This document shows, piece by piece, positions 2,189 through 39,808 of a stretch of DNA of 39,808 nucleotides. The stretch covers positions 1-39,808 of the forward strand of contig PWJZ01000111.1 of assembly GCA_003559855.1 (NCBI GenBank), read 5' to 3'. This DNA is from Bacteroidales bacterium. Its GTDB lineage: Bacteria; Bacteroidota; Bacteroidia; Bacteroidales; UBA7960. The translations under genes were made by a program, and so were the position numbers. Position 1 is the first letter of the stretch, and the number at the start of each line of letters is the position of its first letter. The notes under the pieces were generated by a model, which searched no databases, was not told the origin of the DNA, and was given only the letters and a program-made list of their open reading frames with translations.

Positions 2189-5101
2189 TTAGTGTGATAT
2201 TTGAACGCGTTTGGTCACGACGTCTTCAGCGGTATGGATTTCCATAAAGTAAACTCCTGAGCGCAGGTTGCTTACGTTAAGCTTGTGGTTTAACGTACCG
2301 ACATCAACATTCATGATCACTTGACCGCTGATGCTTATCAGCCTGATCTGTTTGATCATTTCGCTTGATTCAACTTTAAACTCATCGCGTGCAGGGTTGG
2401 GATAAACGTTTATCTCAACCGCATGTATTTCTTTTACAGATATATGTAAGAAATTGGCAGTAAGGGTGATATCTGCATCAGGCATAGTTACGGTTGCAGT
2501 TGCCGATTCCGCGTCGTCAATATACTGTGTATCTCCTGTCCAGTCTACAAATACAAATTCTTCTTCCGGTGTAGCAATAATAGTTACCTCTGTGCCTTCT
2601 TCGTATTCACCGGCGCCGTCAACGTTACCACCATCTGCCGGGTCAGCATTAAGGGTAAGGGTATACAACGGAGGATCAAATTCGAAATTGGCAGTCAGAG
2701 TAACATCTTCGCCCGGCATAGTATAGTGAAATTCTGCCTCTTCGCTTACCACTTCACCGTCTTCATCAGTCCAGTCAATAAACAGCCAGTTATCTGCAGG
2801 GATCGCTTCAACGGTAACTTCTGCACCCATCTTGTACTCGCCTGCACCTTCAACGTCACCACCTTCTTCCGGACTGGCAACAAGTTCAAGAGTGTAAAGC
2901 TCGGCAGTCATTGTTACATCTACAGTGGTATCATCCTCTACTGTAATCTCACCCTCTACGGTAATATAACCTTCTCTTTCCACTATGTAATCATAAGTTC
3001 CGGCTTCTATGTTTTCAAACACATAATTACCCGGATCATTTGTCATACCGTTTAAAGTAACAACGGCATCGGTTATTGGCTCACCTTCCTGGTCAACAAC
3101 GTTAAAAGTAACGGTGAATGTTTCCGGATAGAGTGTAACATTTACCGTAACGTCTCCGTCAACTGTAGCCATGTCTTCAACCGGCATATATCCGGCTTTG
3201 GTTACCAGGTAGCTGTAAAAGCCTACTTCAACATCTTCTATTACCACCTGTCCGTCACCATCGGTTGTATAGTCCTGTTCATCGAAAGTAACTACTGCAT
3301 CTTCCACGGCAACACCATCGGCATCCTCAACGATAAAGGTAACTATACAAAGATCATCGGTTCCTTCAGTAAGCATTACCTCTTCCAGAATGTCTTCGTC
3401 AATAACTTCAACCACACCGAATTGGGTCATATAACCCTCTTTTGCAACAGAGTAGGGATATTCGCCCGGTGCAACGTTTTCGAAGACGTATTCGCCCGGT
3501 TCATAAGCCTCATAATCAAATGTAATTACCGCGTCAGTTATGGGATCACCGGTTGTTTCGTCAGCAACATCAAAAGTAACTGTAAAGCTTTCGGTCAACA
3601 GTGTAACGGTTATATTTACATTTTCACCTACTCCGATGATGTCTTCAACCGGTATGTATTCTTCTTTGGTTACGGAGTATTCATAAATTCCGGCTTCAAC
3701 GTTTGGTATATAAACATTACCGTTGGCATCGGTTGTAAAGGATTCTTCGTCGAACACGATTGTTGCTCCCGGAATGGCGTCTCCTTCAACATCTATGACT
3801 TTGAAGGTAACGGCGAAAACTTCCGGATCACCTTCGCCGACTACTACCGGCACGGTAATATCCTCATCAACATATATTTCTCCGACGTAAGTCTTATAGC
3901 CTTCTTTTTCTACGGAGTAATAATATTCGCCATAGGGAACATCTTCAATGACGTATTCGCCCGGGTCGTACACTACATTACCTAAAGTAATTACAGCATC
4001 AGTGATCGGATCACCTTCTTCATCTACAACTTCAAATGTTACGGTAAACAGCGCTGATTCCATAATAACTTCTATGGTAGTTTCCTGCTCAACAGTAATT
4101 TCGTCTTCAACAGTAAAGTAGCCTTCTCTTTCCACTTTGTACTCGTAGGTGCCGGGTTCTATTTCTTCAAAGACGTAATCGCCCGGCGGGTTTTCTATTC
4201 CGGCAAATGTAACTGTAGCATCGGGGATCTCGTTACCCTCTTCATCTTTAATATCAAATGTTATGGTAAATTCTGACGGCTGCGTAAGGTATACGATAGT
4301 GTTTGCGTAAAGCAGGGCACCATCACCGGTATACATAACAGCATTATTGGCGCTGGTCAGAAGCTGAATTCCTATGATAGCTTTATCAGGATCATCTTTT
4401 TCAGCGATGGCATGCCATCCGTCAGACCAGTCAGCCAGAAGAGTAGCATCAACAAGACCCGGATGATTCAAAAACATCGTACTTCCGGTACCAACTAATT
4501 CCACGCCTTCAAAAATGGGGTGCTCCTCCTCAATTATGACCAAAGTGAGCGTCTTTGTCCCATCACCTATAGCCTGCATCCAGGGGGAATAATTCTCATT
4601 GAAATATCTGCCTCCTAATTCCCATCCGAAAAAGTCCATTACATAGTTACCTTCAATAAATGCTCCGCCCGCATCAATGTAATCTGCCAGAACGTTACCG
4701 ACATGGTGGGGGTCTGTCCATTGATTGTTGTTGTAAGTAATTATAACATCGTAGGGCATAAGGTCTTCAACAGTCATAACAGGTATCTGTGCCTGCGGAA
4801 ACAGAGAAGCATTGATAAATTCGAACTGATTCAGTTCAGCAATGAAATTAGTTTGGGCAGCAACGTCGGGAGTAAGAATGGCTACTTCAATGACTCCGTC
4901 GTAAGTAAGTCCTTTGCTGCGATCAATTTCCACCTTTTCGGGCGGAATTGCATCAGGACTTCTGAGAGGCTCCTGCAATTTTTCAATTGCTTCGCCTGCC
5001 TTTTCCGGTTTTTCCATGTTTTGCAGTTCATTAAACTGGTTTTGCCCAAAGACCAGCATAACAGAGAAAACTGCAAACATCATTAATGTTAATCTCTTCA
5101 T
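2189..5101 (-). CDS. T9SS-secreted surface protein with six PEGA/carboxypeptidase-regulatory-like repeats and two InlB B-repeats
   Basis: 970 residues. The order is a signal peptide (1-19, ending VFGQ), a region at about 65-270 that looks like a class I glutamine amidotransferase/ThuA-like fold (VAILTPD, YDVIITYNN, GGAFIEGNYV), and then six repeats of about 75 residues (about 280-735). The repeats share TVTF.V.D.EG..I.DA...F, EAGTYDYxVxREGY and ITVEDDTTV. Two InlB B-type repeats follow (about 736-885, WLFIDWTDEDGE and FVFVDWTGD, each ending TLTANF), then a type A T9SS sorting domain (about 893-970, with VYPNPARDEF, ISISGQVI and LRSGVYFMEI). The sorting domain implies export across the outer membrane and surface anchoring or release. 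The protein is strongly acidic. The catalytic residues of the N-terminal fold are not recognisable, so its function is unknown. Confidence 0.88.
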   Translation of the reverse strand: MKRLTLMMFAVFSVMLVFGQNQFNELQNMEKPEKAGEAIEKLQEPLRSPDAIPPEKVEIDRSKGLTYDGVIEVAILTPDVAAQTNFIAELNQFEFINASLFPQAQIPVMTVEDLMPYDVIITYNNNQWTDPHHVGNVLADYIDAGGAFIEGNYVMDFFGWELGGRYFNENYSPWMQAIGDGTKTLTLVIIEEEHPIFEGVELVGTGSTMFLNHPGLVDATLLADWSDGWHAIAEKDDPDKAIIGIQLLTSANNAVMYTGDGALLYANTIVYLTQPSEFTITFDIKDEEGNEIPDATVTFAGIENPPGDYVFEEIEPGTYEYKVEREGYFTVEDEITVEQETTIEVIMESALFTVTFEVVDEEGDPITDAVITLGNVVYDPGEYVIEDVPYGEYYYSVEKEGYKTYVGEIYVDEDITVPVVVGEGDPEVFAVTFKVIDVEGDAIPGATIVFDEESFTTDANGNVYIPNVEAGIYEYSVTKEEYIPVEDIIGVGENVNITVTLLTESFTVTFDVADETTGDPITDAVITFDYEAYEPGEYVFENVAPGEYPYSVAKEGYMTQFGVVEVIDEDILEEVMLTEGTDDLCIVTFIVEDADGVAVEDAVVTFDEQDYTTDGDGQVVIEDVEVGFYSYLVTKAGYMPVEDMATVDGDVTVNVTLYPETFTVTFNVVDQEGEPITDAVVTLNGMTNDPGNYVFENIEAGTYDYIVEREGYITVEGEITVEDDTTVDVTMTAELYTLELVASPEEGGDVEGAGEYKMGAEVTVEAIPADNWLFIDWTDEDGEVVSEEAEFHYTMPGEDVTLTANFEFDPPLYTLTLNADPADGGNVDGAGEYEEGTEVTIIATPEEEFVFVDWTGDTQYIDDAESATATVTMPDADITLTANFLHISVKEIHAVEINVYPNPARDEFKVESSEMIKQIRLISISGQVIMNVDVGTLNHKLNVSNLRSGVYFMEIHTAEDVVTKRVQISH

Positions 5102-19679: not shown

Positions 19680-20143
19680 GCCGCTTTTGATTGATAAGAT
19701 AACAAAAACGCAGAATAAAAGGAAACTTTTCAAACGCTTCACAAAGTTAAAAGAAGTAAAAAAACCCATGCCCGTAAAGTGTGTTAATTTGTCTAAAAAT
19801 GCTGATCCATGAAGATTCACTTTCGGATATTTTCTTTTTGGAACCGGTGCGAATAAAATATTGCAATAAACCGGTAAAAAAACGATAATTAGTTAAAAAA
19901 GTTGTTAATCAATAATATTAAGAATTTTACCATAATAATGTTTAAAAATAATTTGTAACAAACATAAAACATAATCAGCTGTTTACCAGCTTATAACGCG
20001 TTGCAGGTTATTCGCTTATTTCCTGATTTTTTTAAAATGCTAAAATAATATGTAAATCACTGAATTATTACCATTCTTTTTTCTATACTTTAGCATATCA
20101 TGGCAATAAAAAGCTTTTACATTAAAATCAAAAACAAATATTT
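19680..20143. other. Divergent intergenic region between the TonB receptor and the SiaB-like gene
   Basis: 464 bp, A/T-rich. The minus-side -7 match is listed separately. On the plus side TACTTTAG (20086-20093) is one base off the -7 consensus, with no -33 partner. I see no RNA gene or repeat. Confidence 0.4.
19742..19749 (-). promoter_or_regulatory. -7 element upstream of the TonB receptor
   Basis: On the minus strand this reads TAACTTTG, a full TAnnTTTG match about 63 nt before the 19679 start codon. No good -33 box is seen. Confidence 0.35.
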
Positions 20144-22893: not shown

Positions 22894-23171
22894 ATTCAGT
22901 AAATGTGACCCTGATCTGCTAATCCTTTTAAAAAGATTATCAACTTAGTGAATATAACGGAGCAATCTCACGGGCAAGGAGAGTTAACAGTATTCCCTTT
23001 ATACGGGAAACGAACGGAATGATAAGGCATGAGGTCTGCATGGAATCAAAAATGATAATGCAAACATTAACGGATATATGTAATTAAAGATCAAGACTTT
23101 AAATAAATTTTATTCCTGCCAACTGGCCTGTTTTATAAACATGGGATATTCAGCGGGTGTTTAATATCGGT

Positions 23172-23205
23172 TTTGGCAGAAAACCCTTAAAATTATGTAT
23201 TTTTG
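23172..23205 (+). promoter_or_regulatory. Promoter upstream of the lipoprotein-uvrC unit
   Basis: TTTG (23172-23175), a 22-nt spacer and TATTTTTG (23198-23205). It implies a 5' leader of about 430 nt that contains both tiny ORF/hairpin units. Confidence 0.5.
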
Positions 23206-23374
23206 TTTTTTGCCGGAGGTTGTATTTCAAGATCTTTTGGCAGTGAAGGTGAAAAATCCGGTTTGATATGTTAAATCAAATAACAAAAATGGTTTTCGTC
23301 TTGAAAAAGTGATAATAATTAAGCTGCAGTAAAGCTTCGTTTTTTGTTTAATTTTTCAGGAATGATAAAAAAAG

Positions 23375-23433
23375 ATGAGACCCTTATTCACCAATATCTT
23401 CAAAAATATATAAACAGAGTCTGAGGGTTCTAT
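23375..23433 (+). promoter_or_regulatory. Leader hairpin with tiny ORF MRPLFTNIFKNI (copy A)
   Basis: A 12-codon ORF (23375-23413, stop TAA) lies in the leader. Its first 12 bases ATGAGACCCTTA pair with TGAGGGTTCTAT (23422-23433): 11 of 12 positions pair if G-U is allowed, with an A-C mismatch at position 4, the same place as in copy B. The start codon itself is inside the stem. Confidence 0.5.
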
Positions 23434-23509
23434 GGGTTAAGAACTTACAATGTTAATTTCAGTAAATATATAAATCAGAAATCGAAAGTTTAACTTACAT
23501 TTTATACAA

Positions 23510-23569
23510 ATGAAACCCTCATTCACTGAACGTTCATAAAAGCAGATGTATAAAGCATGAGGGTTCCAT
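23510..23569 (+). promoter_or_regulatory. Leader hairpin with tiny ORF MKPSFTERS (copy B)
   Basis: A 9-codon ORF (23510-23539, stop TAA). Its first 13 bases ATGAAACCCTCAT pair with ATGAGGGTTCCAT (23557-23569) at 12 of 13 positions, with the single A-C mismatch at position 4. It begins 135 bp after copy A and 138 bp before the real start codon at 23648. No T-tract follows, so it is not a standard terminator. Confidence 0.55.
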
Positions 23570-23647
23570 CGGGTCAAAAAATTAAAACCGCAAATATTAA
23601 TTAATATACTTTATTAAAAATCAATACGTTAAATACATTTTATACAG

Positions 23648-24136
23648 ATGAAAACAGGTTTTGGATTTTTTTTAGCTGTAATATTATTGGTAACATCAAT
23701 TACTGTTTCATGCGACAGGAAGATCAATTTGCGTGACCGTACAGCTGTTGCATATGTTACCGATCATTTCAGCCATTCGTATTATGCTGATTATCTTACT
23801 CTTGTGGATGTTGAAATTGTTGACGAACGTGTTATTTACGAGAGTGCATATGAAATGGAGGTGCATACCTTACAGCTGCTGACGGCCGTTGATATTAAAG
23901 AAAGCTATGTGGTCGGGAATTTCAGGTTCGGTAATTTTCTGGAGATTGACGAATCGTGGAGCATCGAAATGCAAAGGAGAATAAATAATGCTGAAAGCGA
24001 AGAGGAGATTGAACAGATAAAAGAAACCTATTCGCAATATACATTTGAAAAGGGGTTTCAAAAAATCCGGGCAAGTCTCGATTTAACATGGAATGAAACG
24101 GAAGGCAGATGGATGGTTTTAAATATGCGGTTGTAG
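23648..24136 (+). CDS. Small lipoprotein of unknown function
   Basis: 162 residues. The signal peptide ends in a lipobox-like TVSC (Cys22), so it is probably lipid-anchored. The mature part is mixed alpha/beta with a central charged helix (MQRRINNAESEEEIEQIKETYSQY, about 108-131) and a C-terminal LTWNETEGRWMVLNMRL, the kind of strand ending seen in small nuclear-transport-factor-2-like or DUF4878-type lipoproteins. That comparison is weak. It lies 54 nt before uvrC on the same strand. Its leader carries the duplicated hairpin/tiny-ORF units. Confidence 0.7.
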   Translation: MKTGFGFFLAVILLVTSITVSCDRKINLRDRTAVAYVTDHFSHSYYADYLTLVDVEIVDERVIYESAYEMEVHTLQLLTAVDIKESYVVGNFRFGNFLEIDESWSIEMQRRINNAESEEEIEQIKETYSQYTFEKGFQKIRASLDLTWNETEGRWMVLNMRL

Positions 24137-26857: not shown

Positions 26858-26865
26858 TATCTTTG
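26858..26865 (+). promoter_or_regulatory. -7 element upstream of the TraB/GumN gene
   Basis: TATCTTTG is a full TAnnTTTG match. A transcript from here would start near 26872 and carry the tiny ORF and hairpin at 26901-26963 in its leader. No clear -33 TTTG is seen. Confidence 0.45.
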
Positions 26866-26900
26866 TATAGCAAATCATTGAATTTTATAAACTATTAGCT

Positions 26901-26963
26901 ATGAAACCCCGATTTTTTTAAAACACGAACACAATCTTAACAGATTCTGCCGCATGGGGTTTC
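26901..26963 (+). promoter_or_regulatory. Leader hairpin with tiny ORF MKPRFF (copy C)
   Basis: A 6-codon ORF (26901-26921, stop TAA). Bases 26903-26910 (GAAACCCC) pair perfectly with 26956-26963 (GGGGTTTC). The layout is the same as in copies A and B: tiny ORF beginning M-K/R-P, stem closing over its first codons, 3' arm 30-45 nt later, real start codon downstream (here 27 nt after the stem). Confidence 0.5.
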
Positions 26964-26990
26964 CAATATACCTTAAAAATAAATTTTGTT

Positions 26991-27878
26991 ATGGTAAAAA
27001 CAATTTCTAAATCAATTTTCGCAATTCTTTTTTTTCTGATTTTAATCAATACTGCTCATGCACAATCATATCAGAAGGTTGCCGATGCTGTTCTTTGGGA
27101 AATAACGGGCAAAGACCTTCAGAAAAAGTCATGGATTTTCGGTACGCTTCATATGATCTGTCCTGAAGATTTTTATGTTTTCCCGGGCGTGGAAGAAGCA
27201 TTGAAACAAGCCGGCAAAATTGTCGTAGAGCTTGATATTACTGATCCTGAAGTAACGGAGGAAATACGGCAAAGCATGATAATGGGGGAGGGGCAGCGTT
27301 TTGAAGACCTTTTTGATGAAGATGATTACAGACGAGTGAAAAATTTTTTCAAGGATAGTATTGGCGTTAACCTGGAGACTTTGTCGCAGGTTCAACCCAT
27401 ATTCCTCAGTTCTATGATCTACCCGCGTATGATCGGTTGCACTCCCAAAAGCTATGAAGATTACCTGGTCAGAAAGGCAACCGATTATGATATTCCTGTG
27501 AGGGGTTTGGAAGAAGTTGATGAGCAATTCAGTGTTTTCAGACATCTTTCATATGAACAACAGGCAACATTGCTTATGGAGTATATTGAAGAGTATGATC
27601 AAAAGAAGTCTGAATTTAACATTATGGTATCCGACTACCTGAACCAAAGTATCAATAAGCTTCTGGAAGACATTAAAAGTTCTTCATATGATGAGATTGA
27701 ACGGTTTACCCGTGAGATGATGGAAGAGAGAAACAAAATATGGATACCGCGTATCGAAGACCTGATAAACGAACAATCCGTTTTTATTGGTATTGGTGCA
27801 GGACACCTGCCGGGAGAAGAAGGGGTGATAAAATTGCTTCGCGACAGGGGTTATGATGTAAATCCGGTAATGCAATAG
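26991..27878 (+). CDS. TraB/GumN family exported protein
   Basis: 295 residues. Signal peptide 1-24 (ILINTAHAQS). The TraB/GumN (PF01963) pattern is clear: LWEITGKD, SWIFGTLHM with the conserved GTxH near residue 51, VVELDI, VRGLEEVDEQ and the C-terminal FIGIGAGHLPGEEGVIKLL with its second conserved GxxH. The family is related to Tiki-type metalloproteases. The conserved His and Glu residues may bind metal, but activity is unproven for bacterial GumN proteins. It probably acts in the periplasm. The gene is single, with the 5' leader carrying a hairpin/tiny ORF like those upstream of the 23648 gene. Confidence 0.88.
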   Translation: MVKTISKSIFAILFFLILINTAHAQSYQKVADAVLWEITGKDLQKKSWIFGTLHMICPEDFYVFPGVEEALKQAGKIVVELDITDPEVTEEIRQSMIMGEGQRFEDLFDEDDYRRVKNFFKDSIGVNLETLSQVQPIFLSSMIYPRMIGCTPKSYEDYLVRKATDYDIPVRGLEEVDEQFSVFRHLSYEQQATLLMEYIEEYDQKKSEFNIMVSDYLNQSINKLLEDIKSSSYDEIERFTREMMEERNKIWIPRIEDLINEQSVFIGIGAGHLPGEEGVIKLLRDRGYDVNPVMQ

Positions 27879-37058: not shown

Positions 37059-37307
37059 AATTAGTGTCTGTCTTTAATGTCAAACTAAAATTTAAAGAAG
37101 CACCAAATAGCAAATTACAAAAATCAAATTCACCCCGTTAAATAAAAAAACATTTAACGGGGTAAATTCCAAACTCCAATTTCAAAATTTCAAACAATCT
37201 CGGCTTGTTTAGGTCATTGAAATTTTGAAAATTGAAATTTGTTTGAGATTTGTTATTTCATTATTCAATTATAGATAAAAGTTTGACTTTATAGACAGAC
37301 TCTAATT
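37059..37307. mobile_element. MITE-like element with 28-bp inverted ends
   Basis: The left end (37059-37086, starting AATTAGTGTCTGTC) and right end (37280-37307, inverted) match at about 25 of 28 bases. The 249 bp between them code for nothing. They contain a perfect 11-bp hairpin (CCCCGTTAAAT/ATTTAACGGGG, 37133-37143 and 37152-37162) and further A/T-rich inverted repeats around 37170-37260. The same 28-bp end occurs alone at 9675-9702. No clear target-site duplication is seen. It separates yfhO from the glycosyltransferase gene. Confidence 0.6.
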
Positions 37308-39575: not shown

Positions 39576-39808
39576 GAGTATAAAGATAATAAATCCATGT
39601 ATTTAAATACCATTAACTTATCAACAAATAATTAACATGTATTGTTAATTATAACACTTTTCTAATTTTGAGCCTTCTCTACAAAAAGTATTTTTCCCGC
39701 AGATTCACCCCGTTGGATAAATTTATAAAAAACGGGAATTTATAAAAAGCAAATATCCAACAGGGTAAATCGCAGATTTTCGCTGATAAATATAATTGAT
39801 TATCAGGA
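39576..39808. repeat. Repeat-rich tail with a nested hairpin
   Basis: 233 bp without an ORF. A CGCAGATT-type dispersed repeat (CCCGCAGATT at 39696-39705 and CGCAGATTTTCGCTGATAA starting 39771) appears interrupted by an inverted-repeat segment. CCCCGTTGGATA (39708-39719) pairs with TATCCAACAGGG (39754-39765) at 11 of 12 bases. The hairpin tips resemble those in the 37059-37307 element (CACCCCGTT...AACGGGGTAAAT). Upstream of this, GAGCCTTCTCTACAAAAAGT may be the outer end of the IS1182 copy. Confidence 0.5.

Follow-up and report, generated by a model that had tools for sequence, protein, structure and literature searches.

At position 26901 of the 39,808-nt stretch of Bacteroidales DNA analysed here (the window), a short inverted repeat with a mini-ORF at its start lies in the leader of a TraB/GumN gene, and hairpins of similar appearance precede another gene at 23648. 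In a preliminary description these were taken as copies of one dispersed regulatory element. The locus raises the question whether the hairpin controls the gene that it precedes or belongs to a repeat that is present in front of this gene for other reasons.

The repeat in the TraB/GumN leader

The features that had been described at this locus were found again by direct reading, namely the MKPRFF mini-ORF, the 8-nt arms at 26903-26910 and 26956-26963 with 45 nt between them, the ATG at 26991 and the letters TATCTTTG at 26858-26865, which we take to be a match to the Bacteroidetes -7 promoter motif (Table 1). The Pfam search likewise placed the gene at 26991 in the TraB/GumN family, and the hairpins previously noted at 23375 and 23510 were confirmed. 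Taken alone, the pairing and the strength of the hairpin at 26901 are ordinary: the fold of the 128-nt TraB leader had a z-score of -0.17 and was equalled by 84 of 200 shuffled sequences, and a perfect inverted repeat of at least 8 bp was present in 236 of 1000 dinucleotide-shuffled leaders.

Table 1. Coordinates of the repeats and of the features adjoining them. Positions refer to the window unless a contig is given.
Feature	Position	Strand	Remarks
Type 2 palindromic repeat copy (4-copy variant)	26901..26972	+	ends with the shared motif ATACC
Left arm GAAACCCC	26903..26910	+	read directly; paired in the predicted fold
Right arm GGGGTTTC	26956..26963	+	read directly; paired in the predicted fold
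Mini-ORF ATGAAACCCCGATTTTTTTAA (MKPRFF, stop)	26901..26921	+	six codons; not conserved in the other three type 2 copies
Short AT-rich tail between repeat and TraB start codon	26973..26990	+	
TATCTTTG, single -7-like match	26858..26865	+	read directly; candidate promoter
TraB/PrgY/GumN family protein, 295 aa	26991..27878	+	Pfam PF01963, E 1.7e-56
Main-family copy	23510..23647	+	130.7 bits; 60-nt hairpin unit and 78-nt tail reaching the start codon (ATG) at 23648
Main-family copy, in tandem with the 23510 unit	23375..23509	+	101.3 and 119 bits in two scans; tail runs into ATGAAACCC of the second unit
Degraded main-family copy	22903..23113	+	61.6 bits; 50.2 bits for 23029-23123
162-aa ORF abutted by main-family copy	23648..24136	+	no Pfam family
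Main-family unit before rpmJ (L097)	G000 contig 91: 7603-7801		
Main-family unit before rpmD (L069)	G000 contig 91: 10944-11083		
Main-family unit before rpmC (L209)	G000 contig 91: 15248-15376		

As a dispersed sequence, the repeat at 26901 is clearly above chance. In a genome-wide DNA search with 26895-27000 as query a second copy was found on contig C100 (15905-15956; 85% identity over 51 nt, E 6.6e-9), and in a pairwise comparison 73 of 104 positions were identical between the 26901 region and a copy on contig C86 (92753). A sequence model built from these three (R2) then detected a fourth copy, independent of the model, on contig C125 (6736-6809; 44.4 bits, E 3.7e-11). The four copies, termed type 2, have in common the arms, the interior TTTTTTTAAAACACAAACACAA and the final ATACC, and the 26901 copy carries the whole shared sequence of 72 nt; the arms of the C100 and C86 copies are decayed. 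That the hairpin arose by chance and has no relatives is suggested by its ordinary strength, by the frequency of such inverted repeats in shuffled leaders and by a score of only 11 bits with the main-family model described below, but with three more copies of the 72-nt sequence in the genome this is highly improbable. The claim that the element is dispersed was thus borne out. Two further matches were discarded: the best R2 match in other genomes (E 2.9e-4, G003) lies within a 620-aa ORF and was counted as chance, and the motif at 20022-20049, which is 79% identical to 26908-26935 over 28 nt, was dropped as a relative on reading, since no arms were seen.

The surroundings of the type 2 copies differ. 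The C86 copy sits before an enoyl-CoA hydratase gene and abuts the gene start in sense, the C100 copy is in antisense orientation, flanked by two genes of the minus strand, and the C125 copy, which starts within a recR-like gene at its 3′ end, is not next to any gene start; the names of recR and of the genes at C100 are our own assignments from the translations. Since the C100 copy is antisense and the C125 copy is not at a gene start, the leader position is not constant for type 2.

A larger family of palindromic units

The hairpins at 23375 and 23510 belong to a larger group (type 1, hereafter the main family), whose unit has the arms ATGAAACCCTCAT and ATGAGGGTTCCAT and, 3′ of them, some 78 nt of AT-rich tail. 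The palindrome begins with ATGAAACCC and measures 60 nt end to end in its short form, longer forms having 95 to 155 nt, and the tail ends with TTAAATACATTTTATACAR immediately 5′ of ATGAAA. With at most one mismatch ATGAAACCCYNATTY occurs at 49 sites in the 2.97-Mb genome versus 6 for the reversed control, and a 24-mer of the tail with at most three mismatches at 45 sites versus none. A covariance model prepared from 11 main-family copies (R1) matched the own genome 86 times at E ≤ 1, and the size of the family is about 70 copies. Within the window three units stand in a row at 22903-23653, one degraded and two in tandem, before the 23648 gene. The main family is multicopy, short, non-coding, intergenic and palindromic, as are miniature inverted-repeat elements (MITEs), and the midpoint of only one copy in 70 falls within a long open frame; as regards terminal inverted repeats, the arms bound the palindrome and the tail extends past the right arm.

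The repeat at 26901 reached only 11.2 bits with R1 (E 5.8, 26901-27011), compared with 101 and 131 bits for the copies at 23375 and 23510, and it is not the third copy of their element that it had been taken for. Of the same design that had been ascribed to them, the arms and the placement in a leader stood and the remainder did not. The arms ATGAAACCCTCAT/ATGAGGGTTCCAT are common to type 2 and the main family, and the right arm of the C125 copy (CATGAGGGTTCCAT) is letter-identical to that of the main family.

Pairing, promoters and homologous leaders

A cis-regulatory RNA, in which the hairpin would hide or expose the start codon in the TraB mRNA leader, is suggested by the -7-like match upstream and by the arms at 26901, which pair perfectly though CCCC/GGGG replaces the CCCT/AGGG of the family, i.e. 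with one compensated position (C-G for T-A) that lies outside the 11-copy pairing alignment. Within that alignment substitutions in the otherwise complementary arms go uncompensated: two-sided changes were seen in none of 13 pairs, and paired cells amounted to 85.8% compared with 85.7% in shuffles, with 31.5-47.5% in slid controls. The unremarkable fold of the leader and the decayed arms of the C100 and C86 copies speak against this explanation as well, and at gathering score no Rfam match was obtained in the window or at 20 main-family loci.

Homologues of the TraB protein were found in G002, G006, G024, G031 and G035 among 39 genomes searched, and as a paralogue in the own genome. In none of the six homologous leaders were both arms present together with the interior within 300 nt. 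Such an absence had been named in the preliminary description as refuting its reading, but it weighs little here, the proteins being only 31-39% identical. The L179 leader has a GAAGCCCC/CGGGGTTTC pair at -191/-163 with the interior missing, which we take as chance. The promoter match TANNTTTG was present within 100 nt upstream of main-family copies in 4 of 36 cases in sense and 2 of 36 in antisense, and a promoter at a fixed distance was rejected as there was no enrichment. Altogether, a cis-regulatory RNA is unlikely. The observation at 26901 was partly confirmed and its interpretation partly supported; the regulatory part of it was unsupported, given that pairing is not kept among main-family copies, that the mini-ORF varies from copy to copy, that the promoter match is unenriched, and that one type 2 copy is antisense and intergenic and another abuts no gene start.

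The open reading frame in the left arm

An ORF begins in the left arm, and the repeat could be a leader-peptide or upstream-ORF cassette in which this ATGAAACCC ORF, which resembles MKPSFTNVYKRR in those main-family copies that are in frame, would be translated and of importance. In 22 hand-chosen copies (18 of 20 in-frame rows together with L065, L104, L116 and L127; of the two rows dropped, one was from an unrelated order-level genome and the other had a stop at codon 2) frame 0 is without stop, the synonymous fraction at codons 5-11 is 0.365 against an expected 0.201 with the other two frames at expectation, and the BLOSUM score was reached by 33 of 3000 column permutations and 27 of 3000 within-codon permutations. 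These copies were, however, chosen after the data had been seen; the synonymous fraction alone was reached in 257 of 3000 permutations, and the BLOSUM score in 170 of 3000 for codons 2-11 and in 232 of 3000 when extended to codon 12. Moreover, 24 of 72 regex-collected copies carry one extra base and a different frame, early stops, lost starts and frames running on occur in the held-out copies, and the mini-ORF reads MKPRFF at 26901 but MKPSCFNNTNTTLIK in the C86 copy. Coding in the left arm is therefore suggestive in the hand-chosen set, with starts, frames and stops lost elsewhere, and a cassette of this kind is quite unlikely. One group of main-family copies (group 27) has a 12-codon frame close to MKPSFTNVYKRR with excess synonymous changes, which was not upheld in the held-out copies.

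Main-family units usually end at start codons

The 3′ boundary of main-family units usually coincides exactly with a start codon. Among the 70 best copies, 38 end at an ATG that opens at least 60 codons, compared with 118 of 521 (22.6%) noncoding ATGAA sites in the same stretches (binomial p 9.5e-9). Of 40 held-out copies, picked from the matches in G002, G003 and G015 in the survey of other genomes, 28 did the same. Of the remaining 32 copies, three continue into a second unit in tandem, two are truncated at the end of a contig, and at least one adjoins a gene (rpmJ) that falls below the 60-codon cut-off. The abutted starts are preferentially ATGAA, which was found in 36 of 38 cases versus 27 of 97 other starts in these stretches (Fisher p 2.4e-13), a rough baseline in which the first ATG of any long frame was taken.

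Different kinds of protein are encoded behind these boundaries. Of the 38 abutted proteins 16 were scanned, and 15 of them match Pfam; the abutted proteins include ribosomal proteins L29 and L30, a class II tRNA synthetase, NAD synthase and succinyl-CoA ligase. A single cluster of ribosomal-protein genes contains three copies, which precede rpmC, rpmD and rpmJ.

Distribution and signs of movement

The host range of the main family is narrow. It was present in all three other genomes of the genus, in one of 19 genomes that represent other genera of the family (G015, with 41 matches), and in none of 16 genomes from other families of the order. A search of 84,980 species genomes with the short palindrome pattern gave seven stretches, six of them in Bacteroidales MAGs and one in a Sulfurovum MAG; four of eight species-genome matches have a gene start at the usual 136-138 nt, and L170, L171 and L172 have arms without a tail. 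The last of these (DYTG01000009.1, 6176-6228) is the palindrome with the same arms in the MAG labelled Sulfurovum, which may reflect chance, transfer or a binning error. Soda-lake sediment is suggested as the habitat by the record names CSSed and B1Sed. In G015 many of the copies (e.g. L154 and L324-L327) are nearly identical, and a second tail type ending with GATAACACTAATTTACACAGATGAAA is found there. The arm pattern had no matches in viral contigs, and a phage origin was rejected on this account.

Mostly different genes are abutted in each genome. In the other genomes 15 of 22 loci abut a gene, representing 13 distinct genes, of which only one is matched by a homologue adjoining a copy in the own genome. 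G002 and G000 have one abutted gene family in common, which could reflect retention under selection. Movement of the units is indicated because different genomes carry copies at different genes.

The junctions themselves were examined by comparing the flanks of the rpmC and rpmJ copies with the leaders of relatives. The junction could be located automatically at 5 loci out of 21 in one set and at 7 out of 14 in another, and no clean empty site was found at these copies. The left flanks resemble the leaders of relatives weakly in four of five comparisons (z 0.9 to 1.6), and G001 rpmC is opposite, with a z-score of -1.3 for the left flank and 2.6 for the tail. ATGAA is present at both unit ends; judged by eye, the variants seen at one end differ from those at the other and do not vary together with them, which gives no clear sign of a target-site duplication.

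Transposases and known palindromic elements

The own genome has two Y1_Tnp genes, and REP elements mobilised by a RAYT/IS200-type Y1 transposase of the same genome were considered as an explanation. The palindrome at one end, the intergenic location and an A.C mismatch that recurs in the stem (6 of 11 copies) are in line with it. The unit does not end with GTAG, however, no GTAG/CGTC tag at the foot of the hairpin was seen in the alignments of main-family and type 2 copies, and different hairpins (CACC...GGTGAAATAACGGTAG and GCCGC...GCGGCGAAAGTATGGTAG) flank the two Y1 genes on contig C66. Arms and tail were missing from all 17 Y1 loci in six genomes, so that the search of Y1 transposases linked no mobilising enzyme to the repeat, and this origin is very unlikely. 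The Y1 locus itself (L078; G000 contig 66: 4000-10500) contains two Y1_Tnp genes with their own repeated hairpins that end with GTAG.

Three known systems were compared with the repeat. BrickBuilt of Porphyromonas gingivalis (PMC4596501) is also short, AT-rich, non-coding, multicopy and intergenic, carries a terminal palindrome, occurs in Bacteroidales and has internal tandem repeats in some copies, here AACTTAGCGA units. BrickBuilt is described there as lying 49-591 nt from coding sequences and as having IS5-type terminal repeats, whereas the main family ends exactly at start codons and has a palindrome at one end only; in addition, neither a target-site duplication nor a parent transposon was found here, the search having covered Y1 transposases only. 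REP/RAYT systems (PMC3733652, PMC6006769) share the palindromic, intergenic and multicopy character and the recurrent stem mismatch, but the main family is without the GTAG/CGTC tag, is much longer (60-155 nt palindrome and 78-nt tail) and adjoins none of the 17 Y1 genes examined. The Rickettsia palindromic elements (PMC10969869) are likewise palindromic repeats that carry an open frame and insert into genes; those are in-frame inside genes, while the units described here are situated between leader and start codon and carry stops. In the open-access literature searched, no description was found of a Bacteroidetes repeat family whose copies end at start codons.

Two other sets of repeats were seen in the window. 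A second repeated palindrome (CACCCCGTT...AACGGG) is found at 37125-37161 and 39700-39736, the two copies being 73% identical, and long direct repeats at 2-2722 and 2931-4015, which measure 147-155 nt and have spacings of 228-237 and 465 nt, are probably repeated protein domains.

Interpretation

The copy at 26901-26972 is probably a short non-autonomous palindromic repeat inserted into the TraB/GumN leader, where its hairpin would have no gene-specific regulatory role. We read both variants as non-autonomous palindromic mobile elements with a preference for insertion at ATGAA. For type 2, points against this are that the copy at 26901 has a short tail and abuts ATGGTA instead of ATGAA, and that only C86 among the other copies abuts a gene start in sense. 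The lack of a linked enzyme among the Y1 loci and of a clean empty site at rpmC and rpmJ are weak points of the mobile reading in general. The main-family copies may move as DNA, possibly as single strands because a hairpin is found at one end and ATGAA at both. After insertion the tail would become the translation-initiation region of the abutted gene.

On this basis we tentatively propose, as a possibility short of an even chance, a mobile family of one Bacteroidales lineage that enters directly before the start codon, with ATGAA as target, and brings along an AT-rich initiation region, so that even ribosomal-protein genes within the S10-spc operon would remain expressed after replacement of their leader. 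Shine-Dalgarno sequences are reported to be missing in Bacteroidetes (PMC6847099, PMC3155529), and a transposable A/T-rich leader may suffice because initiation in this phylum mostly proceeds without them. The copy at 26901 is best explained as a minor relic of a probably mobile palindromic repeat, and what deserves further attention is the larger family, with its unit ends at start codons. If the proposed reading of the main family is true, the start codon would be a landing site, and the initiation region would have been replaced in unrelated and even essential genes. The family would then provide a simple natural test of what Bacteroidetes ribosomes need 5′ of the start codon and a route by which the expression of many genes may be reset.
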